A stretch of 41,205 bases of DNA from an uncultured Planctomycetota bacterium (GTDB taxonomy: Bacteria; Planctomycetota; Phycisphaerae; UBA1845; UTPLA1), in the NCBI GenBank assembly GCA_900696465.1, contig CAADGE010000047.1, forward strand, positions 1 to 41,205. The letters are read 5' to 3'. The notes below the pieces were generated by a model. That model was not told the DNA's origin. It searched no databases and saw only the letters and a list, made by a program, of their open reading frames with translations. Below are positions 1,487-18,333 of the stretch, piece after piece (the stretch's first letter is position 1; every line of letters starts with the position of its first letter). Position numbers and translations under genes: made by a program.

Positions 1487-2476
1487 ATGAAGGTCATTCT
1501 AGCGAATCCACGGGGGTTTTGTGCCGGTGTGGATCGGGCGGTGAAGATCGTCGATCTGGCGCTGGAGGTCTTCGGGCCGCCGGTCTATGTGCGCCGCGAG
1601 ATCGTCCACAACAGCCACGTCGTGGCGGACCTGCGCGGCAAAGGGGCGATCTTCGTGCAGGAACTGTCCGAAGTTCCGACAGGTGCCGTGGCGATTCTCA
1701 GCGCCCACGGGGTCGCGCCGAGCGTTTTCGACGAGGCACGCTCGCGCGGGCTGCGGCTCATCGATGCGACGTGCCCATTGGTGACGAAGGTGCATCTGGA
1801 AGTTCATCGTTTCGTGCGGCAGGGATATCACATCGTGCTGATCGGCCATAAAGGACACGACGAGGTCATCGGCACGATCGGCGAATCGCCGGACCATATC
1901 ACGCTGGTGGAGAATGAATCTCAGGCGCGGACGGTGCAGTTGCCGCCGGCGGATAAACTCGTCGTACTCACGCAGACGACGCTGGGCGTGGATGACACGG
2001 CCAACGTGCTGGCGGCGTTGCGCGAGCGATTTCCGCACCTGGAGCTGCCTCCGACGGATGACATCTGCTATGCGACGCAGAATCGGCAGGATGCGGTGAA
2101 GGAGATGGCCGCGCAGGGGATGGATCTGCTGCTCGTGGTCGGCTCGCGGAATTCGAGCAATGCTGCACGGCTGGTGGAAGTCGCGCTGACCCGTGGTGTG
2201 TGCGGGTATCTGATCGACGGCGCGGATGAGATCAAGCCGGAGTGGGTGAGCGGGGTAAAGGTCGTAGGCGTGACAGCCGGTGCGAGTACGCCGGAGGGTG
2301 TGGTGCAGGCGGTGCTCACGCGTCTGCGCGAACTCGGCGCCGGCGAGCTGGAACTTTGTACGACCGCGGAAGAGGATACGGTTTTTCAGATTCCGCCGGG
2401 CTTGCGGCAGGCGATCGTCGAACGCGGCGATGCGTCGGGTGTTTCGTTGCAGGTGCTGGGGCAGGAGCGGCGATGA
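1487..2476 (+). CDS. ispH: 4-hydroxy-3-methylbut-2-enyl diphosphate reductase (IspH)
   Basis: 329 residues, normal for the family. Reduces HMBPP to IPP and DMAPP in the last step of the cytosolic MEP isoprenoid pathway using a [4Fe-4S] cluster. The three cluster cysteines are visible: C12 (GFCAGVDRA), C96 (DATCPLV) and C194 (DDICYATQNRQ). Substrate-binding residues are also present: H41 and H44 region (HNSHV), H74 (SAHGV), H124 and E126 (GHKGHDE), and the TQT motif at 162-164. The ATG at 1487 gives the canonical N-terminus MKVILANPRGFC; the longer open frame from 1409 is not needed. Its stop overlaps the start of the pfaD gene by 4 bases (ATGA), so the two are probably translationally coupled. 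The 198 bp upstream contain the divergent start region; a TATGAT at 1408-1413 is the only promoter-like box I see and has no good -35. Confidence 0.95.
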   Translation: MKVILANPRGFCAGVDRAVKIVDLALEVFGPPVYVRREIVHNSHVVADLRGKGAIFVQELSEVPTGAVAILSAHGVAPSVFDEARSRGLRLIDATCPLVTKVHLEVHRFVRQGYHIVLIGHKGHDEVIGTIGESPDHITLVENESQARTVQLPPADKLVVLTQTTLGVDDTANVLAALRERFPHLELPPTDDICYATQNRQDAVKEMAAQGMDLLLVVGSRNSSNAARLVEVALTRGVCGYLIDGADEIKPEWVSGVKVVGVTAGASTPEGVVQAVLTRLRELGAGELELCTTAEEDTVFQIPPGLRQAIVERGDASGVSLQVLGQERR

Positions 2477-4389
2477 GCGAGGGGATGGATCCAAAGCAGA
2501 TCGCCGGCGCGCTGGCATCGTCAGCGATCGAAACGGGAAGGTCCGCACTCGGCGCGGGTAAGTCCGCCATCGATGCCGCTGCGGCAGGAGCAAAGTCCGG
2601 GGCGAAGCTGGCGGTGGGCACCTTCTTCGCGGGCTGCAATCTGCTGCTCGATCTGGGCGTAAAGGCAGCGCGGCGATTGCCGTTGGATGGCGCGGGTGCA
2701 GAGGAGATCGGCGAAGCAGCGCATTACGATCCACAAGTCAAAGGCGCTGAACGGCAGATCGGCTGGTGGCTGCCGGATGGCGACGGCCCCGCGTCTGGCA
2801 CCGAGGCAATGGCACGCGCGCTGGTGCAGGTAACGCAGCCGGTGCATGTGGTACGGCATGGTGGGAGGCCGGCGGTCGGGCTGGGCGGGCGGTGCCTGCT
2901 GGGTTCGGGTACGCTCAACGTATCGCCGTGTTACCCGCTCGTGGCGGTGGCCCCGGCGCTGCATCCTTCGCAACTTGGTGATGCCACATTCTGCAGGGAT
3001 CATCGACTCAGGTATGCCTATCTCGCCGGGGCGATGGCCAACGGCATCGGCTCGGAAGAAATCGTAGAGGCCATGAGCCGGGCAGGCATGCTCGGCTTTT
3101 TCGGCTCTGCGGGACTGCCCATTCCGCGCGTGGAAGCGGCAATCGACCGGTTGCAGAAGAACCTCGGCGATGCCCCCTTCGGCATCAACCTGATCCACAG
3201 TCCGAACGAGCCGGACCTCGAAGCCGGCGTGGTCGATTTGTATTTGCGACGAAAGGTGCGTCTCGTCGATGCCTCGGCCTATCTCGATCTGACAATGCCG
3301 CTGGTGAAGTACCGCGTCGCAGGAATTCAACAATTGCCCGACGGCAGCGTGATCTGTCCGAATACGGTGATTGCCAAGGTCTCGCGGGCGGAAGTGGCAC
3401 GGAAGTTCATGTCGCCGCCTCCGTCGAGTCTTCTCGCGCCGCTTGTGCAGTCCGGCTTCATTACTGAAGCACAGGCAAAAATGGCGGAGTCGGTGCCCGT
3501 GGCGCAGGACCTGACCGTTGAGGCCGATTCGGGAGGTCATACCGACAATCGTCCGGCGATCGCTCTTCTTCCGGGGATGATGGCGCTGCGGGACGAATTG
3601 CAGGCAAAGCACGGATACGCACGACCCCTGCGCATCGGCGCGGCCGGCGGCATCTCAACACCGGCATCGGCCGTGGCGGCCTTCAGCATGGGCGCGGCCT
3701 ACATCATGACCGGCTCGGTCAATCAGGGCTGCGTGGAGGCAGGTACGTCGCAGATCGTTCGGGAGATGCTGGCCCAGGCCGGTCCGGCGGACGTGGCCAT
3801 GGCGCCGGCGGCGGACATGTTTGAGATGGGCGTCAAGGTGCAGGTGCTCAAGTGGGGGACCATGTTCTCGGTGCGCGCTAAAAAGCTTTATGACCTGTAC
3901 CGTGAGCATGCCTCGCTGGAAGAGATACCGCCGTCGCAGCGGGCGATTCTGGAGCGCGACTATTTCCGCTGCACGCTGGAGGAGGCCTGGGCTGACACGC
4001 GACGATTCTTCGAGGAGCGCGACCCGGGCCAGATCGAGCGAGCGACGCGCGAGCCGAAACACAAGATGGCGCTCGTCTTTCGCTCATACCTCGGTCGATC
4101 GTCGGACTGGGCCAACAAAGGCGAGCCGACGCGAAAGGCGGACTATCAGATCTGGTGTGGTCCGGCGATGGGAGCGTTCAATGAGTGGACGCGCGGCACG
4201 TTCCTAGCTAAGCCGGAGAACCGCGGCGTGGTGACTGTGGCGATGAACATTCTGCTCGGCGCGGCTGTGCTGATGCGTGCGAACTGGCTACGGATGCAGG
4301 GCATCGGTGCATTTGCCGAGGCCGCGGCGTTCCGGCCGATGGAACTTCGCCGGATTGAGCAGCTACTTACATCGCCCGTCGGTCACTGA
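2473..4389 (+). CDS. pfaD: PfaD-family trans-acting enoyl reductase of a PUFA/lipid synthase
   Basis: 638 residues. Belongs to the PfaD group of FMN-dependent, 2-nitropropane-dioxygenase-like TIM-barrel enzymes that act in trans as the enoyl reductase of PUFA synthases. Family features seen: LGFFGSAGLP (about 210-220), GINLIHSP, VDASAYLDLT, IAKVSRAEVA, VEADSGGHTDNRP (the SGGHTD signature), IGAAGGISTP and GAAYIMTGSVNQ for phosphate/FMN binding, then the PfaD-specific C-terminal half (QVLKWGTMF, YQIWCGPAMGAFNEW). The start overlaps ispH by 4 bp and has a good AGGAG 6 bases upstream. About 70 Ala/Gly-rich residues precede the conserved part (conserved region begins near AERQIGWW); this extension looks helical and is longer than I expect for PfaD. 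The 169-bp gap to the next gene carries a possible promoter. The assignment as ER for the two following megasynthases is inferred from family and context. Confidence 0.93.
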   Translation: MSEGMDPKQIAGALASSAIETGRSALGAGKSAIDAAAAGAKSGAKLAVGTFFAGCNLLLDLGVKAARRLPLDGAGAEEIGEAAHYDPQVKGAERQIGWWLPDGDGPASGTEAMARALVQVTQPVHVVRHGGRPAVGLGGRCLLGSGTLNVSPCYPLVAVAPALHPSQLGDATFCRDHRLRYAYLAGAMANGIGSEEIVEAMSRAGMLGFFGSAGLPIPRVEAAIDRLQKNLGDAPFGINLIHSPNEPDLEAGVVDLYLRRKVRLVDASAYLDLTMPLVKYRVAGIQQLPDGSVICPNTVIAKVSRAEVARKFMSPPPSSLLAPLVQSGFITEAQAKMAESVPVAQDLTVEADSGGHTDNRPAIALLPGMMALRDELQAKHGYARPLRIGAAGGISTPASAVAAFSMGAAYIMTGSVNQGCVEAGTSQIVREMLAQAGPADVAMAPAADMFEMGVKVQVLKWGTMFSVRAKKLYDLYREHASLEEIPPSQRAILERDYFRCTLEEAWADTRRFFEERDPGQIERATREPKHKMALVFRSYLGRSSDWANKGEPTRKADYQIWCGPAMGAFNEWTRGTFLAKPENRGVVTVAMNILLGAAVLMRANWLRMQGIGAFAEAAAFRPMELRRIEQLLTSPVGH

Positions 4390-4474
4390 CCAGGGTCTCG
4401 CATCGCCTTTTTCTGCTGCGCGGTATCCGTTTTTCCGGATTAGCACCACATGGTCCGGCAACGGGATGCGGCAG

Positions 4475-4503
4475 TTGGGCCCTTTGGCCTGCTCCCTTAT
4501 ACT
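4475..4503 (+). promoter_or_regulatory. Putative sigma-70-type promoter before the first megasynthase
   Basis: TTGGGC at 4475-4480 and TATACT at 4498-4503 are separated by 17 bp and lie about 55 bases before the TTG start at 4559. It would allow the two megasynthase genes to be transcribed separately from ispH-pfaD. Prediction from consensus only; planctomycete promoter rules are poorly known to me. Confidence 0.35.
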
Positions 4504-4558
4504 CTCCACCTGGTCGCCTGTCGGAAGGGCGGCGGCTCCAGCGAATTGAGGATCGAAC

Positions 4559-7500
4559 TTGACCACGAAAGGACATGGCGCGGGTCTTGGGAGTGCTCCC
4601 ATTGCCATCATCGGCATGGGTTGCTGCTTTCCCGGCGCGGCCAATCTGACGGAGTTCTGGCGGGCCCTGGCACGCGGCGAGGACGGCATTTCCGAGGTGC
4701 CGCCGACGCACTGGTCGGCAAAGGACTACTTCGACCCGGACCCGAAGCGGCCGGACCATACATATTGCACGCGCGGCGGGTTTCTCTCGCCGGTGTCGTT
4801 TGATCCGACGGAGTTCGGCATCCCTCCGACGATTCTCGAAGCGACGGACACATCGCAGCTTCTTTCGCTGGTCGTCGCCAGGGCGGCGCTGGAAGACGCG
4901 GGGTATTCTGAAGAGCGCGAGTTCAACCGTGAGCGCGTCAGCGTCATTCTCGGCATCACCGGTACCCAGGAGCTGGTCATCCCGCTGGCGGCGCGTCTGG
5001 GGCATCCGCTCTGGCGTCGCGCCCTTGCCGAGGCGGGCATCTCTCCGGAACTCGCCGAGCGGGTCATCGAACGTATCGCAGATGGATACGTTTCCTGGCA
5101 GGAGAATTCCTTTCCGGGACTGCTTGGCAACGTCGTCGCCGGGAGGATCGCCAATCGTCTGAACCTGCGCGGGACGAACTGCGTGATTGATGCCGCCTGT
5201 GCCAGCTCTCTCGGCGCGGTTCATCTGGCGATGATGGAACTGGCCGCCGGACGCAGCGACATGGTCGTCACCGGTGGTGCCGACACGCTCAACGACATTT
5301 TCATGCACATGTGCTTCTCGAAGACGCCGGCTCTTTCGCCAACCGGCGACGCACGCCCATTTGATGCTGACGCCGATGGCACCGTGCTGGGCGAAGGCAT
5401 CGGCATGCTGGTGCTCAAGCGTCTTGAAGACGCCCAGCGGGACGGTGATCGCATCTATGCGGTGATCCGCGCCGTCGGCACGTCAAGCGACGGCCGATCG
5501 CAGAGCATCTACGCGCCGCATGCCGCCGGTCAGGCCCGGTGTCTGCGCAATGCCTATGCCCTTTCCGGCGTCGAACCGGGCACGGTGGGACTGATCGAGG
5601 CCCACGGAACAGGAACGAAGGTAGGCGACGCGGTGGAGTTCGAGGCCCTTAAGACGGTCTTTCGCGAGGATCGCAGCGACGGCACCTGGTGCGCCGTCGG
5701 ATCCGTCAAGTCGCAGATCGGTCATACGAAGGCGGCGGCCGGCGCGGCGGGCCTGATCAAAGCGGCCCTGGCGATCTACCATCGAGCGTTGCCGCCGACG
5801 ATCAAGATCCGGCAGCCCAATCCGAAACTCGCAATCGACGAAAGCCCATTCTACCTGAATACCGAGCTTCGCCCGTGGCTTTCGCCGGGAAGCTCAAACG
5901 GCGCCGCACCGACGCCGCGTCGCGCCGGGGTCAGTTCCTTCGGATTCGGCGGCAGCAACTTTCACGCGGTGCTGGAAGAGCATCGCGCGGCGCTTCCACA
6001 AACCGCGTGGGATGGTTCTGTGCAGATCATCGCCCTGTCGGCACAGAGTGTCGGCGGCCTGCTGGATCAACTCGATGCGCTGCGAAATGAGTCGGCCGCG
6101 CCGCATTTCGGTGCCGAGCAACTGGCCTGGCGAGCTTCGGAATCACGGCGGACGTTTGATGTTCGGCATGCGCACCGGCTGGTGCTGGTGGTGGAACGTG
6201 GGGAGAAGGTGCGTGAGAAGGTCGCCGAGGTGCTGGGTGAGCTTGTGGAACGAGTGCGGAATCGGCTGGCCTCCGGAGACAGTAACTCGGCATGGTCCGC
6301 AAACGGCGCATACTATGGAACCGGAACTGTCGAGGGCGCGATCGGCTTCGTCTTTCCCGGACAGGGCAGTCAGTATGTCGGCATGGCCCGGCGACTGGCC
6401 TGCATCTTCCCGGAAATGCAGGAAGCCCTGTCTCGCTTTGATTCAACCGCGACGGATCCGAGTGATCGAATCGGCGAAGCCGTCTATCCAGCGCCGGCCT
6501 ATACGGCCGAAGCCCGTGCGGCGCACGAGGCACACCTCCGTCAGACACAGATCGCACAGCCGGCGATCGGAGCGATCAGCGTCGGGCTTTCGCGAGTGCT
6601 CGAACGATTCGGTATACGCCCGCAGGCCGTGTGCGGTCACAGCTACGGCGAACTGGTGGCGTTGCATTTTGCGGGCTACATCAATGAATCGACACTCGTT
6701 GATCTGACGCGGTTGCGCGGTCGGCTCATGGCCGGTGAAGGGCCGCTTCGCGGCGACGCGGAAGCCCGTGCCTCCACCGGTGACGATCGAGGGGCCATGT
6801 TGGCAGTCAAAGCGCCACTGGACGAACTGGCGAAGCTGGCAGGTGAGGCCGGTCTCGATGTCGTACTGGCCAATCGCAACTCACCGACGCAGGGTGTGCT
6901 CTCGGGATCGAGCGCGGCGATTGCCGATGCGGCTGAGCGTTGTAAGGCACGCGGCTTCGTCTCGAAACGGTTGCAGGTCTCCGGGGCGTTTCACAGTCGA
7001 CTGATGGAGGATGCCGTCGGTCCGTTTCGCAATGCCGTCGAGGCGGCGACGTTCAGCGCCCCGCGCCTGCCTGTCATCGCGTATGCAACGGCTCAGGTGT
7101 ATCCGTCGGAAGTCGCCGCAGCAAAGGCACTGCTGGCGCGGCAACTCATCGCGCCGGTCGACTTTGTCGGTCAGATCGAGACCATGTACGCAGCCGGAGT
7201 GCGATGTTTCGTGGAAGTCGGACCTCGGGCAGTCTTGACTGGACTGATCGGCGCGATTCTTGGCGATCGATCTCACACGGCAAGGGCCGTCGATGCGTCA
7301 GCCGGTCACCGCTGCGGACTTGCCGATCTGGCGCGGTTGTTAGCGGAGCTGTCGGCAGCGGGGCATGCGGTGGATTGGCTGCAGTGGGAGCGACCGGTTC
7401 GGGAACCACGCAAGCCGCGGATGGTCGTGCCGCTGGTCGGTGCGAACTACCGATCGAGCGGCGATGCCACGAAGCGTTCGCTCGTCCAAACGTTGGACGC

Positions 7501-10500
7501 GAGCACGGAGCAGGGGAACAAAGTGTCAGGACGACCATGGTCAGACGAGCCGGAGATCGAAGGATCGAGGAAGGAATCGAGCAGCGAATCATCTCCTCCA
7601 ATGATCTTGAAGGCCGAACTGTGCCAGCATGAGCATCCTGCAACTAACATGGCGAAACGCGTGGCGAACAACGAATCAGACGTCGGCCAAGATGCGCGGA
7701 ACAGGTCTGCGGACCGTCCGAGTGTTAGTGCCGCGCTTCCGACACCGGCAAATCCAGCGCTGGGCGAGGCACTGCGGGTGTTACAGGACGGGCTGCGGGC
7801 CATGCAGGCCTTGCAACAGCAGACGGCCGCGGCGCATCAGCGCTTTCTGGAGACGCAGGAGCAGGCCCATCGATCGATTCAGCGGTTGATTGAGAGCCAG
7901 GCAGGACTGATGACCGGCGCGCCAATCGCACCTTTCATGTCGGCCAGCGAGGAAAACGTCGCGATTGCGGATCGTGAAATGCTGCACGCGAAATCGACCG
8001 TTCGCACCGTCGGTCAAGACTCGGAACCCACGCACCAGGTCTCGCGGTCCGTGCCCGAGTCCTCAAAACCCGAAAGCTCAAGCCCCGAGTCCCAGGACTC
8101 AGGCCTCCATCCGAATACCGCAACCCGCAGTCAGAAATCCGAGATCACATCGGTCGTGCTGGATGTCGTCTGCGAAAAGACCGGCTACCCGCGGGAGATG
8201 GTCGCGCCGGAGATGGACATCGAGGCCGACCTGGGGATCGATTCGATCAAGCGCGTGGAGATCATCGCAGCGGTGGAGGAGCGCCTGCCGGGCCTGCCGC
8301 AGATCAAACCGGAACACATGGGCAGCATTCGTACGTTGGCGCAGATTGTTGATTTCCTCGGGAGCGGTGCATCTGCTAACTCAGAATCGTTGCCCGGAGC
8401 GAAGTGCCGTTCTGCTGACGCGAATACGGAGTGCAGTGTTCATGCGGCGAGTCAGGACTCAGGCCTCAGGTCCCAAGTCTCGGATCACCATCCGCAATCC
8501 GGTATCCAAGATACGAAGCCCAGAATCACGGAAACGGTACTCGCCGTGGTCTGCGAAAAGACCGGCTACCCGCGGGAGATGGTCGCGCCGGAGATGGATA
8601 TCGAGGCCGACCTGGGGATCGATTCGATCAAGCGCGTGGAGATCATCGCGGCGGTGGAGGAGCGTCTGCCGGGTCTGCCGCAGATCAAACCGGAACACAT
8701 GGGCACGCTGCGCACGCTTGCGCAGATCATCGACTTTCTCTCCGGCGGCGACGACCGGCAAACGGCCAGCCCGACCGCGGCAGCGCTGGCCAGCGTCACA
8801 GTCGGCAACTCGCAGTCGCCTGCCGCATTGACTGCGAATCGCACCATTCAACCGCGAGATGCGTCGTCGGCAGCGATCCGCCGAAGCGTCTTGACATGCA
8901 AACGTTTCGAATCGCTCGAAGCGGTTGATTGTAAAATTGCCGACGGATGTGAGGTGCTGATTACGGAAGACGGTCACGGTCTTGCTTCGGCGATTCGAGC
9001 GGCGTTGCTGCGTCACGCGATATCCGCCCGCGTAGTTTCTTTGCAGGAGGCCGCCCGGCAGTCGCGAAACGTTGAACTTGGCGGCCTGATTATCACGGCG
9101 CCGATGGTGACCGGTGCTCCGGCGACCGGCGCGGATCTGATGGATGCATTTTTGCGCGATGCCCTGCTTGCCGCTCGTGCCGCAAGTGTGCCGTTGACGC
9201 GGGTCGCCGAAGACGGCGGAGCTTTCTTTGCCACGATCAGCCGAATGGACGGGGCGTTCGGACTCGTCGGCGACGGATTCGAGCCGGTCTGCGGTGCCCT
9301 CGCGGGCCTGGCCAAGACGGCGGTGCAGGAGTGGCCCGGCGTAAGGGTTCGTGCCATCGATGTGGCATCGGACTGGTCGGATCGTGCGGCAGCCGCCGAA
9401 GCGATCGTGCGGGTACTGTTCGCTGATGGCCCTGTCGAAGTCGGTCTCGACGCGAACGGACGCATCGAGCTGGATGCCGTTCCGCAGTCGATTGAGGCCG
9501 GCGAGTCGGCGCTTCGGCCGGGCGATGTGGTCGTGATTTCGGGCGGGGCGCGCGGGGTTACGGCTGAAGCCGCCGTGGCGCTGGCACGGGCGTACTCACC
9601 AACCCTCGTGCTGCTCGGACGCAGCGCCGCGCCGGAAGACGAGCCCGCCTGGCTGGCGATGCAATCGACCGAGGCGGAGATCAAACAGGCGATCCTGCGG
9701 CATGAATTCGTCGGTCGGCGGCCGTCGCCGGCGCAGTTGCAGGCGGCTTTTGCCGCGCGCATGGCGGCGCGGGAAATCGCGAAGAATCTCGATCGCATTT
9801 CGGCAGCCGGCGTGACGGTGGTCTATCGCCAGGTGGATGTCTGCGATGCCAACGCCGTGCGGGTCGCGCTGTCGCAGATCCGCGAGCGGTACGGGCCGAT
9901 ACGGGGAATCGTACACGGGGCCGGCGTGCTGGAAGATCGGCTCATTCGCGACAAAACGCCGGAGCAGTTCGACCGTGTCTATGAGACGAAAGTGGGGGGG
10001 CTGCGAAACCTGCTGCATGCTGCTTCGCCGGGTGATCTGAGACAGCTGTTGATGTTTTCATCCGTCAGCGCCCGTTATGGCAACGTCGGACAGGTCGACT
10101 ACGCGATGGCAAACGAAGCGCTGAACAAGATCGCACAGCGACTTTCGCGCGAGCTTTCGGATTGCCGCGTGGTCTCGATCAACTGGGGGCCGTGGGACGG
10201 CGGCATGGTTACGGCTGCGCACAAGCGTGAATTCGCCGGCCGCGGCGTAGAACTGATTCCTCTCGAGGCCGGCGCCGATGCGCTGGTCGCTGAGATGGGC
10301 GCGGCAGGCAGGGCCGTGGAAGTCGTCATCGGCGCGCCGCCGGATCAAGCCGGACAACAGAAGAAGGTGTCGTCTGCTGCGACGACTCGAACCATTCCGC
10401 TCAGCGTGGCCTTCGAGCGCGAGCTGGACCTCCAGCGGCATCCATTTCTCAGGTCGCACGTATTGGGCGGTCGGCCGGTCCTGCCCGCGGCGATGATGCT

Positions 10501-11260
10501 TGAATGGCTTGCCCACGCATCGCTGCACGCCAATCCCGGTCTTGTTCTTCAGGGTGTCGAGAAGTTGCGTGTCCTCCGCCCGGTCGCCGTGGACGCTGCG
10601 GTGAAGATGCTTCAACTGGCCGTTGCCCGCCCGCGGCGGGACAACGGCACCTTCGCGGTCGATGCGGAACTGCGCACCCTCGACGAAGCTTCACGATTCG
10701 TCGTGCATGCGCATGCGACCGTCCTTCTGGGAACGCAAGTACCGCTGGCGCCTTCGGCGCCGGAGTCTCATTCCGTGATTGACCGCGCCTATCCGCGGAG
10801 CGTCGAAGAGGCCTACGAGGCATATCTTTTCCACGGTCCGCATTTTCAGGGGATTCGTGAGATCTGTGGTCTGAGCGATCGGGGGATGGTCGCCCGCGTT
10901 CGCTCTGCCGGCGCGCCGCGCGACTGGATGTGCGAGCCGCTTCGCAGCGCATGGCTGATCGATCCACTGCAGATCGATGTCGCATTTCAACTAGCGATCC
11001 TCTGGTGCTGCGAGCAGATGGGCGCGCCGTCGCTGCCGAGTTATCTCGGGCGATATCGCCAGTATGCGGCCGAGCTGCCCGCCGAGGGATCGTCGTGCAT
11101 TCTGCAGGTGCGTGACGCGAGTCGTTCGAAACTGACGGCTGACATCGCCTGGGTCGATGCGGCGGGGGCCCTCGTGGCGGATCTGACCGGCTGCGAGTGT
11201 ACGGTCGATCCGCTCCTGGCGAAGGCCTTTCGCCATGCCGCGGAACATGCCGGAACTTGA
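4559..11260 (+). CDS. pfaA: PfaA-like megasynthase: KS-AT-ACP-ACP-KR-DH
   Basis: 2233 residues. Iterative type I fatty acid/polyketide synthase of the PUFA/secondary-lipid class. KS about 15-475 with C214 (DAACASS), H349 (EAHGTGT) and H389 (QIGH). AT about 605-900 with FPGQGSQYVGMA and S695 (GHSYGE). A linker with a predicted helix (about 1075-1115, TAAAHQRFLETQ) leads to two ACPs, each with LGIDSIKR, phosphopantetheine serines S1229 and S1356. KR about 1650-1930: GGARGVT nucleotide loop, FSSVSA serine, Y1848 (VDYAMANE). C-terminal PKS-type DH about 1945-2220: H1967 in HVLGGRPVLP (HxxxGxxxxP) and D2140 in DPLQIDVAFQ. The start is TTG with GAGG 7 bases upstream; no closer ATG fits before the KS motif IAIIGMGC. 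The stop is 11 bp before the next gene. Gene order and domain order are as in myxobacterial pfa2. Only two ACPs is low for EPA/DHA synthases, so the product may be another long-chain lipid. Confidence 0.93.
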   Translation: MTTKGHGAGLGSAPIAIIGMGCCFPGAANLTEFWRALARGEDGISEVPPTHWSAKDYFDPDPKRPDHTYCTRGGFLSPVSFDPTEFGIPPTILEATDTSQLLSLVVARAALEDAGYSEEREFNRERVSVILGITGTQELVIPLAARLGHPLWRRALAEAGISPELAERVIERIADGYVSWQENSFPGLLGNVVAGRIANRLNLRGTNCVIDAACASSLGAVHLAMMELAAGRSDMVVTGGADTLNDIFMHMCFSKTPALSPTGDARPFDADADGTVLGEGIGMLVLKRLEDAQRDGDRIYAVIRAVGTSSDGRSQSIYAPHAAGQARCLRNAYALSGVEPGTVGLIEAHGTGTKVGDAVEFEALKTVFREDRSDGTWCAVGSVKSQIGHTKAAAGAAGLIKAALAIYHRALPPTIKIRQPNPKLAIDESPFYLNTELRPWLSPGSSNGAAPTPRRAGVSSFGFGGSNFHAVLEEHRAALPQTAWDGSVQIIALSAQSVGGLLDQLDALRNESAAPHFGAEQLAWRASESRRTFDVRHAHRLVLVVERGEKVREKVAEVLGELVERVRNRLASGDSNSAWSANGAYYGTGTVEGAIGFVFPGQGSQYVGMARRLACIFPEMQEALSRFDSTATDPSDRIGEAVYPAPAYTAEARAAHEAHLRQTQIAQPAIGAISVGLSRVLERFGIRPQAVCGHSYGELVALHFAGYINESTLVDLTRLRGRLMAGEGPLRGDAEARASTGDDRGAMLAVKAPLDELAKLAGEAGLDVVLANRNSPTQGVLSGSSAAIADAAERCKARGFVSKRLQVSGAFHSRLMEDAVGPFRNAVEAATFSAPRLPVIAYATAQVYPSEVAAAKALLARQLIAPVDFVGQIETMYAAGVRCFVEVGPRAVLTGLIGAILGDRSHTARAVDASAGHRCGLADLARLLAELSAAGHAVDWLQWERPVREPRKPRMVVPLVGANYRSSGDATKRSLVQTLDASTEQGNKVSGRPWSDEPEIEGSRKESSSESSPPMILKAELCQHEHPATNMAKRVANNESDVGQDARNRSADRPSVSAALPTPANPALGEALRVLQDGLRAMQALQQQTAAAHQRFLETQEQAHRSIQRLIESQAGLMTGAPIAPFMSASEENVAIADREMLHAKSTVRTVGQDSEPTHQVSRSVPESSKPESSSPESQDSGLHPNTATRSQKSEITSVVLDVVCEKTGYPREMVAPEMDIEADLGIDSIKRVEIIAAVEERLPGLPQIKPEHMGSIRTLAQIVDFLGSGASANSESLPGAKCRSADANTECSVHAASQDSGLRSQVSDHHPQSGIQDTKPRITETVLAVVCEKTGYPREMVAPEMDIEADLGIDSIKRVEIIAAVEERLPGLPQIKPEHMGTLRTLAQIIDFLSGGDDRQTASPTAAALASVTVGNSQSPAALTANRTIQPRDASSAAIRRSVLTCKRFESLEAVDCKIADGCEVLITEDGHGLASAIRAALLRHAISARVVSLQEAARQSRNVELGGLIITAPMVTGAPATGADLMDAFLRDALLAARAASVPLTRVAEDGGAFFATISRMDGAFGLVGDGFEPVCGALAGLAKTAVQEWPGVRVRAIDVASDWSDRAAAAEAIVRVLFADGPVEVGLDANGRIELDAVPQSIEAGESALRPGDVVVISGGARGVTAEAAVALARAYSPTLVLLGRSAAPEDEPAWLAMQSTEAEIKQAILRHEFVGRRPSPAQLQAAFAARMAAREIAKNLDRISAAGVTVVYRQVDVCDANAVRVALSQIRERYGPIRGIVHGAGVLEDRLIRDKTPEQFDRVYETKVGGLRNLLHAASPGDLRQLLMFSSVSARYGNVGQVDYAMANEALNKIAQRLSRELSDCRVVSINWGPWDGGMVTAAHKREFAGRGVELIPLEAGADALVAEMGAAGRAVEVVIGAPPDQAGQQKKVSSAATTRTIPLSVAFERELDLQRHPFLRSHVLGGRPVLPAAMMLEWLAHASLHANPGLVLQGVEKLRVLRPVAVDAAVKMLQLAVARPRRDNGTFAVDAELRTLDEASRFVVHAHATVLLGTQVPLAPSAPESHSVIDRAYPRSVEEAYEAYLFHGPHFQGIREICGLSDRGMVARVRSAGAPRDWMCEPLRSAWLIDPLQIDVAFQLAILWCCEQMGAPSLPSYLGRYRQYAAELPAEGSSCILQVRDASRSKLTADIAWVDAAGALVADLTGCECTVDPLLAKAFRHAAEHAGT
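8168..8704 (+). repeat. Tandem ACP duplication (156-bp near-identical units)
   Basis: Bases 8168-8323 and 8549-8704 are offset by 381 bp and differ at only four positions by my comparison, all third-codon-position synonymous changes. Both encode the ACP core around LGIDSIKR. The linker before each unit also shares CAGGACTCAGGCCTC (8093-8107 and 8453-8467), at an offset of 360 bp, so the duplication included linker DNA that has since gained or lost 21 bp. The pattern suggests recent duplication or ongoing gene conversion. Confidence 0.9.
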
Positions 11261-11271
11261 AGGGATATCGC

Positions 11272-14200
11272 ATGTCCCCGGACTGCCCCATCGCGGTCGT
11301 CGGCATGGGCGGCGTCTTTCCTGGCGCGAACGATGTCGACGCCTTCTGGCGAAACATCATCTCCGGGAAGGACCAGGCCCGCGAAGTGCCGCATGGACGA
11401 TGGGTGATTGAACCGCGGCGAGCGCTGGCAGGTGAAGCGCAGCCCGACCGGGTTGTTTCGCTGCGCGGCTGCTTCGTGGACGATTTTCGGTTCGACCCAA
11501 CGGGCTTGCGAATCGCCTCCGACCTTCTCTCTCTGCTTGATCCTGTCTATCACTTCGCATTGCACGCGAGCCGCGATGCCTTTCGCGATGCCCGCCTTGA
11601 CGATGTTGATCGGACACGCGTCGGCGTGATCCTCGCGGCCATCGCATTGCCGACAGACGCGTCGTCGGCGATCACGCGCGAGCTTCTGGGGTCGGCCTTC
11701 GAACAGCGGTTGCTCGGCGGGCCACACGGCGCTTCGCGCGGGCTCCGCACCCACCCGCTCAACAGCCGCGTCGTCGGTCTTCCGGCGGCGCTTGTTGCAC
11801 AAGGGTTGGGATTGGGTGGCGGTACGTATACGCTCGATGCGGCTTGTGCATCCTCCCTGTATGCGTTGAAGCTGGCATGCGACGAACTGTCCTCCGGTCG
11901 GGCCGATGCGATGCTCGCCGGCGGCGTCTCGCGGCCGGAATGCCTTTACACGCAGATGGGTTTTACCCAACTCCGGGCGCTGTCGCCGAGCGGGCGCTGC
12001 GCGCCCTTTGATGCATCGTGCGACGGGCTGGTCGTCGGCGAGGGCGCGGGCATGGTCGTTCTCAAACGCCTTGACGACGCCCTGCGCCAGGGCGATCAGG
12101 TGTACGCAGTCATCCGCGGAATCGGCCTGTCGAACGACATCGGCGGCAGTCTGCTGGCGCCGGATCGCGAGGGTCAGTTGCGGGCCATGCGGCAGGCGTA
12201 CACCCGTGCGGGCTGGTCGCCGGACGCGGTTGATCTGATGGAGTGCCACGGCACAGGCACGCCCACGGGCGATGCCGTTGAGATTCAGAGTCTTCGCGCG
12301 CTGTGGCAGGACATCGGCGCCGTCGTAGCGGGCTGCCCGATCGGTTCGGTCAAGTCGATGATCGGGCATCTTCTGACCGGCGCGGGGGCGGCGGGGCTTA
12401 TCAAGATACTGCTGGCGATGCGGGAGGGTATGCTGCCGCCGTCGGCCAACTACCACCACCACGGCGATGCGATTCCGCTGGCAGGCAGCCCCTTTCGCGT
12501 CCAGACGGTGCCCGAGACGTGGGAACGACGGGATGCTTTTACGCCGCGCCGTGCCGCAATCAGCGCCTTTGGCTTCGGCGGCATCAACGCGCATGTACTG
12601 GTCGAAGAATGGCCGGCATCGACGGCAACCGTCCGCAATCCACAAACGGCGGTCCCAAGTTCGACGTCGCATGAGCCCATTGCAATCGTCGGCCTCTCCG
12701 TTCGCGTTGGAAGTGTGGCATCGGCCGCTGAACTGCGACAGCTTCTCTTTCGCGGAGATTCCGCGATTGGCCCACGTCCGATGAACCGCAGGCCCGGTTG
12801 TGACGAGCTGATCAGGGATTCGGCGGATGCTCATACGGATCGAGGCGCTTATCTCGATGGGCTTTCCATCCGAGCGGGCAAGTTCCGGGTGCCACCCAGC
12901 GAGATCCCCGAGATACTCCCGCAACAGCTCCTGATGCTCGATGTCGTTTCCGAGGCGCTGGCTGATGCAGGCATGCCGCTGCGAGAACGCCGACCGGACC
13001 TGGGGGTCGTGATCGGGCTGTCGCTCGATCTGAATACGACCAATTTTCACCTGCGATGGTGGATCCCCGGACAGGTTCGTAGTTGGGCCGAGAAACTGGG
13101 TGTGTCCCTCTCACCCGAGCGGGAGGCCGAATGGATTGACGCGCTGAAGGATGCCGTCGGACCGGCACTCAACGCCTCTCGTACTCTCGGCGCGCTGGGG
13201 GGGATGGTTGCCAGTCGCATCGCACGCGAGTTGCAGGCCGGCGGCCCGAGCTTCGGCGTTTCCTGTGAGGAGGCCTCAGGCATCAAGGCCATTGAGATTG
13301 CCGTGCGTTCGCTGCGGGCCGGTGAGATCAACCGTGCCGTGGTCGGCGCGGTGGACCTCGCAGGCGACGTTCGAAACGTCATCGCCACGAGATCGCTTCT
13401 CGGCAAGTCGGGCGACGATTCGTCGGATCCGTTTGGTGACGGCGCGGCGGCCGTCGTTCTCAAGCGGCTCTCTGACGCCCGGCGCGATGGCGATCGAGTC
13501 CATGCCCTGATCCGCGGCATCGGCGGGGCAAGCGGAACGTGGCTTGGTGCCTGTAATGAGTCTGCGATCGACGTCTGGCAGCGCTCGCTCGATCGGGCTT
13601 GTCAGGATGGTGACGTACGCAGGGAGCAAATCGAATTCTATGAATTGCACGATGGGGCGGGAGAGCAGCGTGCGATAGAAACCGCCGCGCTGGTTGAGAG
13701 TCTACCCGCTCGGCAGCGGCCGGTGGTCGTGGGCTCGGTGAAATCCGTCGTCGGTCACACCGGCGCAGCGGCAGGACTGGCCTCGGTTGTCAAGGCCGCG
13801 ATGTGTCTCGAGCATGCTGTTCTACCACCCGCCGTCGGTCCGCTGGCTGAACGATCAGCTTTGACCGATCGGCTCTACGCGCCGACTGCCGCGCAATACT
13901 GGTGGCATGAACGGGCGCGCAGTGCACACTGCGCTGCTGTCGCCGCGATGACCACGGATGGTAACTGTGCCCATGTGGTGCTGGAGGAGGCCCCGTGCGA
14001 AGACGAGCGCCGTGATCGCCGTCGGGTACTGCAACTTCCGGCGGCGATTTTTCGAGTCACGGCGGATGAGCCGGCGGCGCTCGTCGATGGACTGGCAGTT
14101 CTTCGTGCTTTTGCAGTCCGGCAGCGAAATCCAATCGAATCATTGGCGGCGCGGTGGCATCGTCAGCAAAGCACGGCGCGCGAAGGGCGGTTGGCGGTTG

Positions 14201-17200
14201 CAATCCTCGCGGAGAGCGACGATGACCTCGTGCGTGTCATCGACGAGACTTCGGCAGCGCTGCGCACGGCGCCTGACGAACCGCTCGACGGCCGTCGCGG
14301 CGCTTTTTTTGAACCGGTCCCGCTCGGCCCAGCCGGCGAAATGGCATTCGTCTATCCCGGCTCCGGTAGTCATTACCCGGGCATGGCGCGCGAGCTTTCG
14401 CTGTACTTCCCGGTGGTTGTGGCGGCCTTGGACCGCGAGCATAAGCAAGTCGCCGGTATCGCCGAATCCGATCCCGATCATGAATTACCCTGGCGGCCGG
14501 AATGGAATGATCTTGCGCAAGGCGGCTCTGTCGCCGGAGGTACGGAGTCGATCGAGACGTTCATGTTCAGTCAGGTTTCGTTCGGCGTGCTTGCCAGCGA
14601 CATCCTCCGGGCCTTCGGGCTGCGACCGACGGCGATCATCGGATACAGTCTGGGCGAGTCCGTCGGCCTGCTGGCCACGCGAACCTGGAACGGTGAAGAA
14701 ATGTATCGCCGGCTTCGGGCTTCGCCGCTTTTCAAGACGCAGCTTGCCGGATCGCGCACGGCTTTGCAATCCGCCTGGAAACTTTCACCTGAAGCGGCTG
14801 CCGAATGGTGCGCCGCGGTCGTCGCGCGCCCCGCGGAGCAGGTGCGCGAAATACTGCGGGACGTGACCTCCGTCCGGCTGCTGATCGTGAACTCCCCTCG
14901 GGAGACGGTCATCGGCGGGCTTCGTGCGGATGTCAACGAGGTGGCACGGCGACTGGGCTGCCGGGCGATCGCGGTGCCGGGCGTGCCGACGGTCCATTTC
15001 GACGCCGCCAAGGTGGTGGAGCAGGCCTACCGCGAACTGCATCTGCTGCCGACAACACCCCCCGACGGCATGCGCTTCTACAGTGCTGCCGCGGGTCGCG
15101 CCTACCCGGTCTCTCGCGAGGCAACAGCCGAATCCATCACCGCCCAGGCCCTGCACGGTTTCGATTTTCCATCGCTGATTCGACAGGCCTACGACGACGG
15201 CGTGCGACTCTTCGTCGAGGTCGGCCCACAGGCGTCTTGTACACGAATGATTGATCGAATCCTGCGAGGCCGGTCGTACTTTGCCCGCTCGGCGTCGCAG
15301 CGCGGCGACAGCGAAATTCGTCCGCTTCTTGAGCTGATCGCAGGGCTGATTGCCCATCGTGTACCCGTGGACCTTGCCGCTTTGTACGGCTCGGATGAAT
15401 CGGATGAACGAGAATCGGCGGCGTCTTCGTCGGTAGCCGATTCGTGCGAGCGGTTGATTCACGTGCCCATTTGCGGGCCACGCTTGCTCCCGCCACTACC
15501 GCCGCCGGGCGACTTGCACTTAACGTCGCCCGCGACCGCATCGCAAACATCGCCTGTTGCCATTTCTGACCACCCGTTGCCCCCGGTTCACAAGAGCGCC
15601 GCGGCTTATTCGATGCTTTCAGATTTAGCGGAATCGAATGACGGTACGGCGCTGCGCGCGTCGTTTATGGAAACGGTGAGTGCCACGACTGCCGCCCATC
15701 ACGCCTACATGCGGTTCAGCGAGTCTGCCGCGCAGGGGATGGAGTCGGTGCTGACAATGCAGTCACGATTGCTGGAGCTGGCCGCGCGCCACGGAATCGA
15801 CGTGGCGCGATCCATTGACATCAATGAAGACCAGACAGCTCCGGATAAGCCGACGGATATGCAAGGGAAAGATTCACCTGCGTATTCCCGAGAACAGTGT
15901 CTTGAATTCGCCCGCGGGAGTGTCGCGGCTGTCCTCGGACCGATGTTCGACGAAGTCGATCGACATCCCACACGTGTTCGCCTGCCGGATGAGCCGCTGA
16001 TGCTCGTCGATCGCATTCTAGATGTCGATGGTACGAAGGGCGTCCTCGGACCGGGGCGCGTCGTGACTGAGCACGATGTCCTGCCCGGCGCGTGGTATCT
16101 TGACGGTGATCGGTGCCCGATCTGCATCACGGTCGAAGCCGGCCAGGCGGATCTGTTTCTGTCGGGCTATTTGGGGATCGATCTGGTTACGAAGGGCCTG
16201 CGGACGTATCGCCTGCTCGATGCGACGGTGAAGTTCCATCGGGGATTGCCGCGGCCCGGAGAGACGATCCGCTACGACATCCGGATCGACCGCTTTGTGC
16301 GCCAGGGACAGACGCACCTGTTTTTCTTCGAGTTTGACGGCACGATCGACGGCGTGCCAGTCCTGACCATGCGAAACGGCTGCGCGGGCTTCTTCACAAA
16401 GGAGGAAATTGCGGCGTCGCATGGACTGGTACTGCGTCCGGAAGACACGTCGCGCGGCGAGGGCAGAATCACGGGTGGTTACCAGCCGCTTCTGACTGCC
16501 GAAAAGGGCGCACGAATCGAATCGTATGGCGATGAACAACTCACCACACTTCGCTGCGGAGACCTCGGCGGCTGCTTCGGGCCGGTGTTCGCGTATGCGG
16601 GCTTGCACAATCCGCTGCGCCTGCCGGATGGGCGAATGAAACTGATCGATCGCGTCCTCTCGCTGGATTTGACCGGTGGGCGCTTCGGGCTGGGGGAGAT
16701 CGTCGCTGAGGCGGACGTCCACCCTAACGACTGGTTCCTGACCTGCCATTTCGTGGACGACATGGTTATGCCGGGGACACTCATGTACGAATGCTGTGCC
16801 CATGCCCTGCGCTTTCTACTGCTTCGCATGGGCTGGATCGGCGAGCGCGAAGGTGTCTGCTACGAGCCGGTGCCGGGCGTGGCAAGTTCTCTTCGGTGCC
16901 GTGGCCCTGTGACGCCGAATACAAAAAAGGCCTCGTATCGCGTGGTGATTAAGGAGATCGGTTATCGATCCGGATCGTCCGATGTCAAGGACCGGGTAGA
17001 TGAGATTCCGTATGTTCTGGCTGACGCTCTCATGTACGCTGACGGAGTAGCCATCGTGCAGATGACGAACATGTCGCTGCAGGTGACGGGCCTTACGCGT
17101 GAAAAACTGGAATCCACATGGAAGAACGCCGGCAGCAAATCTCGATCCGCAATCCACAAACCAAAAACCGCAATTCCAACGCCTGCGTCGCGCGTTTTCA

Positions 17201-18333
17201 CACGTGATCAGATTCTCGCCTTTGCAGTCGGCAAGCCGTCGGATTGTTTCGGCGAGCCGTACGCGATCTTCGACGGCGATTCGCGACGCATTGCCCGCCT
17301 GCCGGGTCCGCCGTATCAGTTTCTCGATCGTGTGACGCAGGTCGAACCCGACCCGTTCGTCCTGCAGCCGGGAGGGTGGATCACGGCGGAGTATGACATC
17401 CCACCGGATGCGTGGTATTTCGCGGCCAATCGCCAGCCGACGATGCCGTTCGCGGTCCTGCTCGAAGTCGCCCTTCAGCCGTGCGGTTTTCTCGCGGCCT
17501 ATGCAGGTTCAGCGTTGACATCCGAAACGGATCTGTCGTTTCGGAATCTCGGCGGCAGTGCCGTGTTGCATCGGGAAGTCCGGCCGAACGACGGCACGCT
17601 TCGCACGCGCGTCCGCATGACGAACGTCTCCCGCGCCGGTGGGATGATCATCCAGGAGTACGAATTTCACGTTCTTTGCGCGGATCAGTCGGTGTACGAG
17701 GGCACGACGTCGTTCGGTTTCTTCTCGGCCGAGGCGCTCGCCCGACAGGTCGGCATCCGCGACGCGCGGGATCGGATGTTTACGCCCGAGGCAGCGCAGC
17801 TGGCCGGAGCGAAACAGTTTGATCTGCCCGACCTGCCGCCGCACACGCCTGATGAGGCGATGGATGCTGATACGACCAGTGGTGCGGCGCTACCCGGCCG
17901 CGCATTTCGCATGATTGACCGCGTTGGCGTACTTCTGCCGGATGGCGGGCCGCGCGGTCTGGGCTACATACAGGGTTCGACGCAGGTTGATCCGACGGCG
18001 TGGTTCTTCAAGGCCCACTTTTACCAGGACCCCGTCTGGCCGGGTTCGCTGGGGCTGGAGTCGCTCCTGCAACTGCTCAAGGCGTTTATGCTCGATCGCC
18101 GACCGGAGCTTGCCGAGACGCATCGGTTCGAGTGCATCGCCGTCGGCCGTCGCCACCAGTGGAGCTACCGCGGCCAGATCGTGCCGAGTAATAAGCGCGT
18201 CGAGGTACAGGCGGTCATCACACACCGCGAGGAGGGCCCTGGCTCGTTGATAGTGGCGGATGGGTTTTTAGGCGTAGATGGTGTTATCATCTATCAGATG
18301 AATGACTTTGGGTTACGGATTGCGAATTCATGA
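11272..18333 (+). CDS. pfaC: PfaB/PfaC-like fused megasynthase: KS-CLF-AT-DH-DH
   Basis: 2353 residues. KS about 1-450 with C192 (DAACASS), ECHGTGT and MIGH. Second KS-like domain about 465-910 acts as chain-length factor: the active Cys position reads S-C-E-E-A-S-G, with Glu667 aligned to the nucleophile, while GSVKSVVGH is kept. AT about 1020-1370 with YPGSGSHYPGMA and S1126 (GYSLGES), equivalent to PfaB. After a low-complexity linker and a helical segment (about 1470-1510) come four FabA-like hot-dog units forming two double-hot-dog DH domains: the first pair carries H1826 (TCHFVDDMVMPG), the second carries WYFAANRQPTMPF, then H2249 (KAHFYQDPVWPG). ATG at 11272 has AAGGGA 6-7 bases upstream. 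Domain order matches myxobacterial pfa3, but that protein ends in an AGPAT acyltransferase that is absent here; this one stops right after the last DH. The stop overlaps the dapF start. Confidence 0.92.
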   Translation: MSPDCPIAVVGMGGVFPGANDVDAFWRNIISGKDQAREVPHGRWVIEPRRALAGEAQPDRVVSLRGCFVDDFRFDPTGLRIASDLLSLLDPVYHFALHASRDAFRDARLDDVDRTRVGVILAAIALPTDASSAITRELLGSAFEQRLLGGPHGASRGLRTHPLNSRVVGLPAALVAQGLGLGGGTYTLDAACASSLYALKLACDELSSGRADAMLAGGVSRPECLYTQMGFTQLRALSPSGRCAPFDASCDGLVVGEGAGMVVLKRLDDALRQGDQVYAVIRGIGLSNDIGGSLLAPDREGQLRAMRQAYTRAGWSPDAVDLMECHGTGTPTGDAVEIQSLRALWQDIGAVVAGCPIGSVKSMIGHLLTGAGAAGLIKILLAMREGMLPPSANYHHHGDAIPLAGSPFRVQTVPETWERRDAFTPRRAAISAFGFGGINAHVLVEEWPASTATVRNPQTAVPSSTSHEPIAIVGLSVRVGSVASAAELRQLLFRGDSAIGPRPMNRRPGCDELIRDSADAHTDRGAYLDGLSIRAGKFRVPPSEIPEILPQQLLMLDVVSEALADAGMPLRERRPDLGVVIGLSLDLNTTNFHLRWWIPGQVRSWAEKLGVSLSPEREAEWIDALKDAVGPALNASRTLGALGGMVASRIARELQAGGPSFGVSCEEASGIKAIEIAVRSLRAGEINRAVVGAVDLAGDVRNVIATRSLLGKSGDDSSDPFGDGAAAVVLKRLSDARRDGDRVHALIRGIGGASGTWLGACNESAIDVWQRSLDRACQDGDVRREQIEFYELHDGAGEQRAIETAALVESLPARQRPVVVGSVKSVVGHTGAAAGLASVVKAAMCLEHAVLPPAVGPLAERSALTDRLYAPTAAQYWWHERARSAHCAAVAAMTTDGNCAHVVLEEAPCEDERRDRRRVLQLPAAIFRVTADEPAALVDGLAVLRAFAVRQRNPIESLAARWHRQQSTAREGRLAVAILAESDDDLVRVIDETSAALRTAPDEPLDGRRGAFFEPVPLGPAGEMAFVYPGSGSHYPGMARELSLYFPVVVAALDREHKQVAGIAESDPDHELPWRPEWNDLAQGGSVAGGTESIETFMFSQVSFGVLASDILRAFGLRPTAIIGYSLGESVGLLATRTWNGEEMYRRLRASPLFKTQLAGSRTALQSAWKLSPEAAAEWCAAVVARPAEQVREILRDVTSVRLLIVNSPRETVIGGLRADVNEVARRLGCRAIAVPGVPTVHFDAAKVVEQAYRELHLLPTTPPDGMRFYSAAAGRAYPVSREATAESITAQALHGFDFPSLIRQAYDDGVRLFVEVGPQASCTRMIDRILRGRSYFARSASQRGDSEIRPLLELIAGLIAHRVPVDLAALYGSDESDERESAASSSVADSCERLIHVPICGPRLLPPLPPPGDLHLTSPATASQTSPVAISDHPLPPVHKSAAAYSMLSDLAESNDGTALRASFMETVSATTAAHHAYMRFSESAAQGMESVLTMQSRLLELAARHGIDVARSIDINEDQTAPDKPTDMQGKDSPAYSREQCLEFARGSVAAVLGPMFDEVDRHPTRVRLPDEPLMLVDRILDVDGTKGVLGPGRVVTEHDVLPGAWYLDGDRCPICITVEAGQADLFLSGYLGIDLVTKGLRTYRLLDATVKFHRGLPRPGETIRYDIRIDRFVRQGQTHLFFFEFDGTIDGVPVLTMRNGCAGFFTKEEIAASHGLVLRPEDTSRGEGRITGGYQPLLTAEKGARIESYGDEQLTTLRCGDLGGCFGPVFAYAGLHNPLRLPDGRMKLIDRVLSLDLTGGRFGLGEIVAEADVHPNDWFLTCHFVDDMVMPGTLMYECCAHALRFLLLRMGWIGEREGVCYEPVPGVASSLRCRGPVTPNTKKASYRVVIKEIGYRSGSSDVKDRVDEIPYVLADALMYADGVAIVQMTNMSLQVTGLTREKLESTWKNAGSKSRSAIHKPKTAIPTPASRVFTRDQILAFAVGKPSDCFGEPYAIFDGDSRRIARLPGPPYQFLDRVTQVEPDPFVLQPGGWITAEYDIPPDAWYFAANRQPTMPFAVLLEVALQPCGFLAAYAGSALTSETDLSFRNLGGSAVLHREVRPNDGTLRTRVRMTNVSRAGGMIIQEYEFHVLCADQSVYEGTTSFGFFSAEALARQVGIRDARDRMFTPEAAQLAGAKQFDLPDLPPHTPDEAMDADTTSGAALPGRAFRMIDRVGVLLPDGGPRGLGYIQGSTQVDPTAWFFKAHFYQDPVWPGSLGLESLLQLLKAFMLDRRPELAETHRFECIAVGRRHQWSYRGQIVPSNKRVEVQAVITHREEGPGSLIVADGFLGVDGVIIYQMNDFGLRIANS
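12632..12647 (+). repeat. Dispersed linker motif, copy in KS-CLF linker
   Basis: TCCGCAATCCACAAAC, identical to bases 17146-17161. It lies between the KS and CLF domains and is read here in the frame V-R-N-P-Q-T, different from the frame used at the other copy. Confidence 0.6.
17146..17161 (+). repeat. Dispersed linker motif, copy between the two DH domains
   Basis: TCCGCAATCCACAAAC, identical to 12632-12647 but read in another frame (S-A-I-H-K-P). It lies in the linker between the first and second double-hot-dog DH domains. A shorter TCCGCAATCC is at 8491-8500 in the inter-ACP linker, and a reverse-oriented relative (GGATTGCGAATTC) covers the end of the gene near 18317-18329. Confidence 0.6.

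Follow-up and report, generated by a model that had tools for sequence, protein, structure and literature searches.

A pfaBC-fusion lipid synthase in an uncultured planctomycete and its probable link to Ole hydrocarbon synthesis

The window analyzed here, a stretch of 41,205 nucleotides, is the start of contig C47 (CAADGE010000047.1) in the genome of an uncultured planctomycete (GCA_900696465.1; 4.14 Mb, 96.8% complete). Judged by sequence, three of its genes are a secondary lipid synthase of the polyunsaturated fatty acid (PUFA) type with a predicted product. They encode a PfaD-type enoyl reductase (ER), a PfaA-type protein, and a fusion of PfaB and PfaC called PfaBC. It is probable that this synthase supplies the Ole head-to-head hydrocarbon pathway, with OleA as the main acceptor of its polyene chains. 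This predicted product route is well indicated by the genome comparisons presented below, and the link between pfa and ole genes was itself suggested in 2011. According to the available portion of that study (Shulse and Allen 2011, PMC3098273), synthases designated Type I were proposed as a source of olefin precursors because Geobacter bemidjiensis, which carries a Type I cluster, makes C31H46. The literature covered, which included few subscription papers, yielded no description of a planctomycete pfa-ole operon that we recognized beyond this suggestion. Genes for ole in Planctomycetes have been reported (PMC7158056, PMC10176705) in papers whose accessible parts do not mention pfa.

Results

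pfa genes co-occur with ole genes and often adjoin them

The distribution of the two gene sets was compared among 200 genomes, including that of the window. Both oleA and oleC are present in all 33 genomes scored as pfaD-positive (the window's own included, and one represented by a fragment under the cut-off). Among the 167 pfaD-negative genomes, 41 carry oleA and 39 carry oleC. Fisher's test, which ignores the kinship among these genomes, gives p ~2e-17 for oleA and ~6e-18 for oleC. Within one family, designated f4, all nine pfa-positive genomes are ole-positive and all five tabulated pfa-negative genomes are ole-negative. The family table holds 17 f1, 3 f2, 14 f4, and 9 f5 genomes, being those whose family code was in view; further genomes of f4 (G050, G053, G056, G059) and f5 (G051, G054, G057, G060) appear in no match list. 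Genomes that carry ole without pfa include many of family f8, three of f2, and G016, which has both oleA and oleC. Partial ole sets without pfa were found in G005 (75% complete), which has oleC but not oleA, and in G048 (72% complete), which has oleA but not oleC.

Physical linkage was examined in relatives identified by scanning an alignment of the dehydratase (DH) region against a GTDB-based collection, from which the best 80 of 521 confirmed relatives were analyzed. An ole gene is present in 54 of these 80 loci. Where at least 2.5 kb of downstream sequence is available, OleA is encoded directly after pfaBC in 46 of 66 loci, with a median gap between open frames of 4 bases. Thirteen additional stretches were picked for pfa/ole proximity in earlier hits. 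Six of these, all from planctomycete relatives (L247, L248, L249, L250, L256, L259), hold a contiguous pfaBC-oleA-oleB-oleC-oleD array on one strand. In L251-L255 oleA alone follows pfaBC, with no further ole gene within 5-8 kb and with oleC on another contig, and L257 and L258 contain ole genes but no pfa genes. The lineage thus commonly keeps the two gene sets linked, and the family of the window seems to have dismantled the operon.

The genome of the window encodes a dispersed ole pathway

OleA, OleB, OleC, and OleD were all found in the host genome, OleD scoring below the strict cut-off of its model. OleA is encoded on contig C40 (L033:8596-9630), matches NF006720 with 473 bits, and contains the pattern EPxx[AS]x(14,18)DxxNACL that marks OleA proteins (PMC7158056, as far as its text was available). 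An OleB-OleC fusion of 894 amino acids is encoded on the minus strand of contig C27 (648-3329; L187) and matches NF006754 with 749 bits, relative to a cut-off of 478. We take NF006720 to represent OleA and NF006754 to represent OleC, and these identities are borne out by the ole operons of relatives. The OleB half of the fusion was recognized by eye as an alpha/beta-hydrolase, and it aligns with the OleB proteins of relatives at 49-65%. An OleD-like protein on contig C22 matches NF042422 with 420 bits, and the next best dehydrogenase of the genome reaches 191.

Long frames matching OleC (878-1186 amino acids) also occur in genomes G001, G002, and G010 and, in another family, in G027, G058, and G081. 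A third ketoacyl synthase III (KAS III), on the minus strand of C22 (C22:242614-242838; L035), adjoins an isoprenylcysteine-methyltransferase-like gene and an epimerase. The KAS III and the epimerase were considered as an OleA-OleD pair and rejected: StlD/DarB models score best for the former, and the latter reaches only 131 bits for OleD. Another set of fatty-acid-like genes, the second in this genome, lies at C27:262103-264228 (L034), where two adjacent FabF-like ketosynthases have neighbors that resemble fabG and fabZ by eye.

The synthase has a full set of Pfa domains

The gene order in the window is ispH, PfaD-type ER, PfaA-type protein, PfaBC fusion, and dapF. Domains are abbreviated as ketosynthase (KS), acyltransferase (AT), acyl carrier protein (ACP), ketoreductase (KR), and chain-length factor (CLF); PKS denotes polyketide synthase. 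All features are on the plus strand.

1409..2476, +, ispH (lytB), overlapping the ER start; NCBIfam TIGR00216, 328 bits
2473..4389, +, PfaD-type enoyl reductase (pfa1-like), 638 amino acids; TIGR02814 pfaD_fam, 632.8 bits, cut-off 449
4559..11260, +, PfaA-type KS-AT-ACP-ACP-KR-DH protein, 2233 amino acids, TTG start; TIGR02813, 1536 bits, and Pfam domains
4598..5848, +, KS1 with motifs DAACASS, HGTGT, and KSQIGH; PF00109/PF02801
6347..7243, +, malonyl-type AT with motif GHSYGE; PF00698, 113.8 bits
8135..8740, +, tandem ACPs with two LGIDSIKR motifs; two PF00550 stretches
9530..10198, +, KR; PF08659, 134 bits
10403..11203, +, PKS-type DH with motif HVLGGRPVLP; PF21089 and PF14765
11272..18333, +, PfaBC fusion KS-CLF-AT-DH-DH, 2378 amino acids; structure 6riw (ORF10, KS-CLF of PfaC), E 1e-126, and Pfam domains
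11287..12621, +, KS2, catalytic Cys kept (DAACASS); PF00109/PF02801
12673..13896, +, CLF with SCEEAS, Glu replacing the catalytic Cys; KS match and alignment with 6riw
14347..15267, +, PfaB-type AT with motif GYSLGE; PF00698, 39.6 bits; TIGR02816 PfaB, 115.8 bits, below the cut-off of 144
15874..17106, +, FabA-like double hotdog 1 (DH) with one catalytic half, CHFVDD; PF07977 and alignment
17194..18330, +, FabA-like double hotdog 2 (DH) with one catalytic half, AHFYQDP; PF07977; the protein ends here
18330..19196, +, dapF, 288 amino acids, overlapping the pfaBC stop; TIGR00652, 274 bits

An earlier note, made from the letters of this stretch, had described a PUFA-type secondary lipid synthase in a probable planctomycete, with the order ER, KS-AT-ACP2-KR-DH, KS-CLF-AT-DH-DH and an AT fused inside the third protein. 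Per-domain profile searches return the same order and the same internal AT, and the TIGR02814 and TIGR02813 matches plus the full Pfam domain set agree with the synthase type. The host is likewise confirmed as a planctomycete, the DH region being 100% identical to record CAADHA010000031.1, 'uncultured planctomycete isolate PLA5'; the literature covered yielded no paper on that isolate. The ER also matches the PfaD structures 6lkc (E 1e-167) and 4yx6 (E 8e-165) in the PDB. Thus, profile and structure matches identify a PfaD-type ER, a PfaA with KS-AT-tandem ACP-KR, and a PfaC with KS-CLF-DH-DH.

To judge from conserved residues, the domains look complete and their active sites intact. The KS Cys/His/His residues are present, with the catalytic Cys in both KS domains, and the Glu that replaces the catalytic Cys of the CLF is common to the window and Moritella PfaC. 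Malonyl ATs are described as having the motif GHSxG, whereas PfaB has GYSMG, in which the Tyr is essential (PMC12895367, in the part consulted). The four FabA-like stretches constitute two double-hotdog DHs, and the FabA-type His is present in two of the four hotdogs, one per DH. For the PfaBC start, the ATG at 11272 is more likely than the GTG at 11197, where the open frame begins. The statement of the earlier note that only two ACPs are present stands as a count, given the two LGIDSIKR motifs, but not as an oddity: small ACP numbers are usual, the 17 planctomycete PfaA frames compared, the window included, having between one and three DSI motifs each. The motif survey used narrow patterns, and those for CLF, KR, and DH missed several relatives, so that absences there are not evidence.

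Ahead of the region that matches PfaD structures, the ER has an N-terminus of ~100 extra amino acids with a hydrophobic stretch (window 2473-2780). Of 16 loci of relatives inspected (L037-L052), 12 have ispH ahead of pfaD; the gene is thus a conserved flank, probably outside synthase function. Beyond dapF, the genes ispF, cysS, and ruvC-ruvA-ruvB follow on the same strand (19118-23580; cysS has an NCBIfam match, and the remaining genes were recognized by eye), and the pfa genes are thus embedded among housekeeping genes. Two proteins encoded on the minus strand, one Nidogen-like (NIDO; 39569-41191) and one with FG-GAP repeats (36368-37837), are probably surface or secreted proteins. A search for phage or viral homologues gave none.

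This domain set also bears on whether the locus makes a non-polyene specialized lipid, such as a long-chain alcohol, a glycolipid, or a hybrid polyketide chain. Secondary lipid synthases can do so, phenolic lipids of Azotobacter being one example (PMC3098273, excerpt), and the window also carries glycosyltransferase and methyltransferase genes 9-16 kb further downstream. However, both PfaC-type FabA DHs, the PKS-type DH, the CLF, and PfaD are all in place; the neighbors are ispH, dapF, ispF, cysS, and ruv genes; and no PKS or nonribosomal peptide synthetase domain was found in the 14 further window open frames scanned, six of which have no Pfam match. Such a product is therefore highly improbable.

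Absence of AGPAT is the usual state in this lineage

The third protein ends ~10 residues past its last FabA match and lacks the acylglycerolphosphate acyltransferase (AGPAT) domain of the myxobacterial counterpart, as the earlier note had stated. Re-inspection of the region past 18333 upholds this reading. There is no AGPAT after pfaBC, because dapF overlaps its stop codon from 18330 and the frames of relatives also end at FabA. Indeed, 79 of the best 80 pfaBC frames (of 521) stop no more than 16 residues after the last DH match, a result that concerns a fused AGPAT, a stand-alone gene not having been sought. In the remaining locus, L122, the frame runs off the contig end and is undecided. By title, the best 80 comprise planctomycetes, Acidobacteria, Desulfobacterales, Geobacteraceae, Thiotrichaceae, and others, and none of these 80 has a recognizably myxobacterial title. 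Labels of 'Myxococcota' on records titled 'Deltaproteobacteria bacterium' were judged a name artifact and not used. In its available portion, PMC4882568 confines AGPAT to myxobacterial type L clusters. Because AGPAT is treated there as a myxobacterial specialty, its absence is the usual state. This confinement is perhaps not strict, as suggested by plasmid AZO_p1 of Azospirillum lipoferum 4B (L133, 9591-18374), whose PfaBC has a C-terminal PF01553 AGPAT match.

Two quick tree searches, with SH-aLRT support only, place the synthase among these relatives. For the KS2-DH tree, 58 loci were picked (39 of the best 80, 15 planctomycete, and 4 plasmid); duplicates (L054, L077, L082) and short or not single-frame domains (L048, L060, L080, L099, L136) were dropped, leaving 51 rows including the window. 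A clade of 48 rows with support 100 unites the window with Geotalea, Geobacteraceae, and Desulfosudis, and the Azospirillum row falls outside. The ER tree draws on a search for PfaD in 28 of the 80 genomes, with L141, L145, L154, L162, and L164 omitted as duplicates or fragments. This tree agrees (41 rows, support 97, including a Gemmatales row), with the Azospirillum row flagged as a long branch. In both trees the window is placed among Geobacteraceae, Desulfobacterales, and further planctomycetes. A forced grouping of the window's family with Azospirillum was rejected (p-AU 6e-5 in an approximately unbiased (AU) test of 22 rows, Azospirillum being on a fairly long branch).

These results speak to the earlier view of a streamlined myxobacterial-style synthase, taken here as a Pfa1-2-3 that was transferred and then lost its AGPAT. 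The ER-first order and the AT inside the third protein are consistent with this origin, and the AGPAT-bearing Azospirillum cluster shares the gene order. Against it stand the 79 of 80 relatives that end at DH, the strongly supported clade that excludes the AGPAT-bearing row, and the AU test. A myxobacterial derivation is thus very unlikely. Because the trees hold no myxobacterial pfa, the separation from that type rests on Azospirillum L133 as its stand-in.

Instead, the best reading of the sequence is a Shulse-Allen Type I/K-like synthase of a planctomycete/deltaproteobacterial lineage. The accessible text of PMC3098273 assigns to Type I the pfaBC fusions of Geobacter-related bacteria and of the planctomycete Gemmata obscuriglobus, and to the similar Type K the synthase of Desulfococcus oleovorans. 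The window has the fusion, the trait that this text gives in place of a domain order, and its phylogenetic position is established through Geobacteraceae, Geotalea, and Desulfosudis rows, as the strains named in 2011 are not in the trees. The same text lists Type I clusters as most often having a phosphopantetheinyl transferase (PPTase) close by, and Type K is not in that list. We use the label Type I/K-like because the fusion and the clade fit and a nearby PPTase is lacking.

Two observations from the trees concern other loci. In L139, L140, and L166 (Desulfobacterales HSG2 and Anammoxibacter), a PfaD-type ER is fused behind an AT domain and falls outside the Pfa clade of the ER tree. A pfa-ole operon is also present in two records titled 'Klebsiella pneumoniae' (L088, L097), titles that are probably wrong because L088 groups with metagenome-assembled genomes of Gammaproteobacteria.

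A single AcpS-size PPTase is encoded in the genome

The sole PF01648 match in the genome is a 130-amino-acid frame of AcpS size (C35:140314-140601; L032). No Sfp-type PPTase was found in the genome, there being no PF17837 match. Among 21 pfa-positive genomes (the window's own included; 61 searched), 20 have one PF01648 match and G012 (87% complete) has none. The listed frames, classed by length only, measure 129 to 205 amino acids. The 4PPT_N model exceeded its cut-off in none of the 21, with weak matches in G007 and G015. The Pfa systems described in the literature covered use PfaE or EntD-like PPTases. Either AcpS serves the Pfa ACPs here, or a divergent PPTase escapes the models.

Discussion

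OleA as the probable acceptor of Pfa chains

In the proposed route, KS1 and KS2-CLF would elongate malonyl units on both ACPs, the KR would reduce, and the PKS-type DH and two FabA-like DHs would dehydrate and isomerize. PfaD would reduce selected double bonds, leaving a methylene-interrupted polyene chain. OleA would take polyenoyl chains off the ACPs and condense two of them head to head, a step for which genome context provides support and whose chemistry is presumed. Reduction, lactonization, and decarboxylation by OleD, OleC, and OleB would yield a long polyunsaturated hydrocarbon, C31:9-like by analogy. For Shewanella, OleA was concluded to act directly on Pfa ACPs (PMC6463001, in the part available). 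By analogy, neither AGPAT nor a thioesterase would be needed, because OleA would draw chains directly from these ACPs. The earlier suggestion that the product is released or handed on differently is probably right.

The PfaB-type AT may also move chains to other ACPs for phospholipids, and a rival explanation makes phospholipid PUFA the main product. In that scheme this AT off-loads to an ACP, a stand-alone PlsC then acts, and the Ole enzymes work on chains from elsewhere or on a mere side stream, on the model of Shewanella. The window keeps the GYSLGE AT, as do 14 of 15 PfaBC frames of relatives (L041 lacks it), PfaB has been reported as a terminal long-chain acyltransferase (PMC12895367), and Shewanella makes both products (PMC6463001; both papers seen as excerpts). 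However, no PfaB-type AT was found in G008 (94% complete) or G062 (89% complete), where only the PfaA AT matched, at 26-28%, nor in G207, in which ole genes were not searched. The AT-less PfaBC frames, L041 (G008), L062/L250 (G062), and L068 (G207), span 1776-1883 amino acids versus 2378 in the window. G008 and G062, both planctomycetes, carry OleA and OleC, so the AT is hardly the off-loader there. Together with the universal presence of ole in pfa-positive genomes and the frequent adjacency of oleA to pfaBC, this makes the phospholipid scheme rather unlikely. In the window, by contrast, the second AT is intact, and it may serve a separate function.

Several observations weigh against OleA as the main acceptor. 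The co-occurrence count was made over related genomes, which are not independent samples. In 20 of the 66 loci OleA is not directly downstream of pfaBC. Among these 20 are the window and other planctomycete loci from its family, and four of the 20 (L089, L092, L098, L102) have oleB or oleBCD downstream and no OleA. The host's oleA, oleBC, and oleD lie on three contigs, unlinked to pfa and to each other, so that co-regulation of pfa and ole is only a possibility. The OleD score of 420 bits is below the strict NCBIfam cut-off of 580. OleA could use chains from ordinary fatty acid synthase, because 41 of the 167 pfaD-negative genomes have oleA. Phospholipid PUFA is a possible product of the window because its GYSLGE AT is retained. 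Finally, a search of the window detected no PPTase; the host's one PF01648 match is on C35.

Beyond the preferred reading, in which Pfa chains pass to OleA, we tentatively entertain a broader scenario, to which we give somewhat less than even chances. The PfaBC-fusion lineage, which spans several phyla, may be a dedicated machine for polyunsaturated hydrocarbons that descends from a pfaD-pfaA-pfaBC-oleABCD operon. OleA would be its proper off-loader, AGPAT would be unneeded, the PfaB-type AT could be lost, and in planctomycetes the housekeeping AcpS would activate the ACPs. In the family of the window the operon would have been split, and in the genus of the window oleB and oleC would have become one gene, with the pathway kept.

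Relation to known systems

The window resembles Type I/K systems (Geobacter, Gemmata, Desulfococcus oleovorans) in its PfaBC fusion, clade, and ole co-occurrence, and differs in that its pfa genes sit between ispH and dapF, its ole genes are dispersed, and no PPTase is close. It has two ACPs, whereas the Geotalea locus has four. With myxobacterial Pfa1-Pfa2-Pfa3 (Aetherobacter, Minicystis) it shares the leading ER and the AT in the third protein, but it lacks AGPAT and DH4 and, provided that Azospirillum L133 represents the myxobacterial type fairly, belongs to another clade. The L133 cluster has the order ER, KS-AT-ACP2-KR, KS-CLF-AT-DH-DH in common with the window and differs in a weak further PKS-type DH match and the C-terminal AGPAT. 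Shewanella PfaABCDE with OleABCD (C31:9; PMC6463001, excerpt) offers the same enzyme set and the same presumed link between Pfa ACPs and OleA. In the window, by comparison, pfaB is fused into pfaC, an Sfp/PfaE-type PPTase was not detected, and the ER lies outside the Shewanella branch. Odd details of the window's genome are its dispersed ole genes, its OleBC fusion, and its single AcpS-size PPTase.

With these results, the Pfa synthases of planctomycetes and deltaproteobacteria gain a concrete, testable product route, and a supposed oddity, the missing AGPAT, is recast as the usual state of their lineage. If the proposed route is true, the whole seven-gene operon of relatives would be a compact expression system. 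Planctomycetes and sulfate reducers with the operon would likely produce C31-type polyunsaturated hydrocarbons, a point of relevance to lipid biomarkers.

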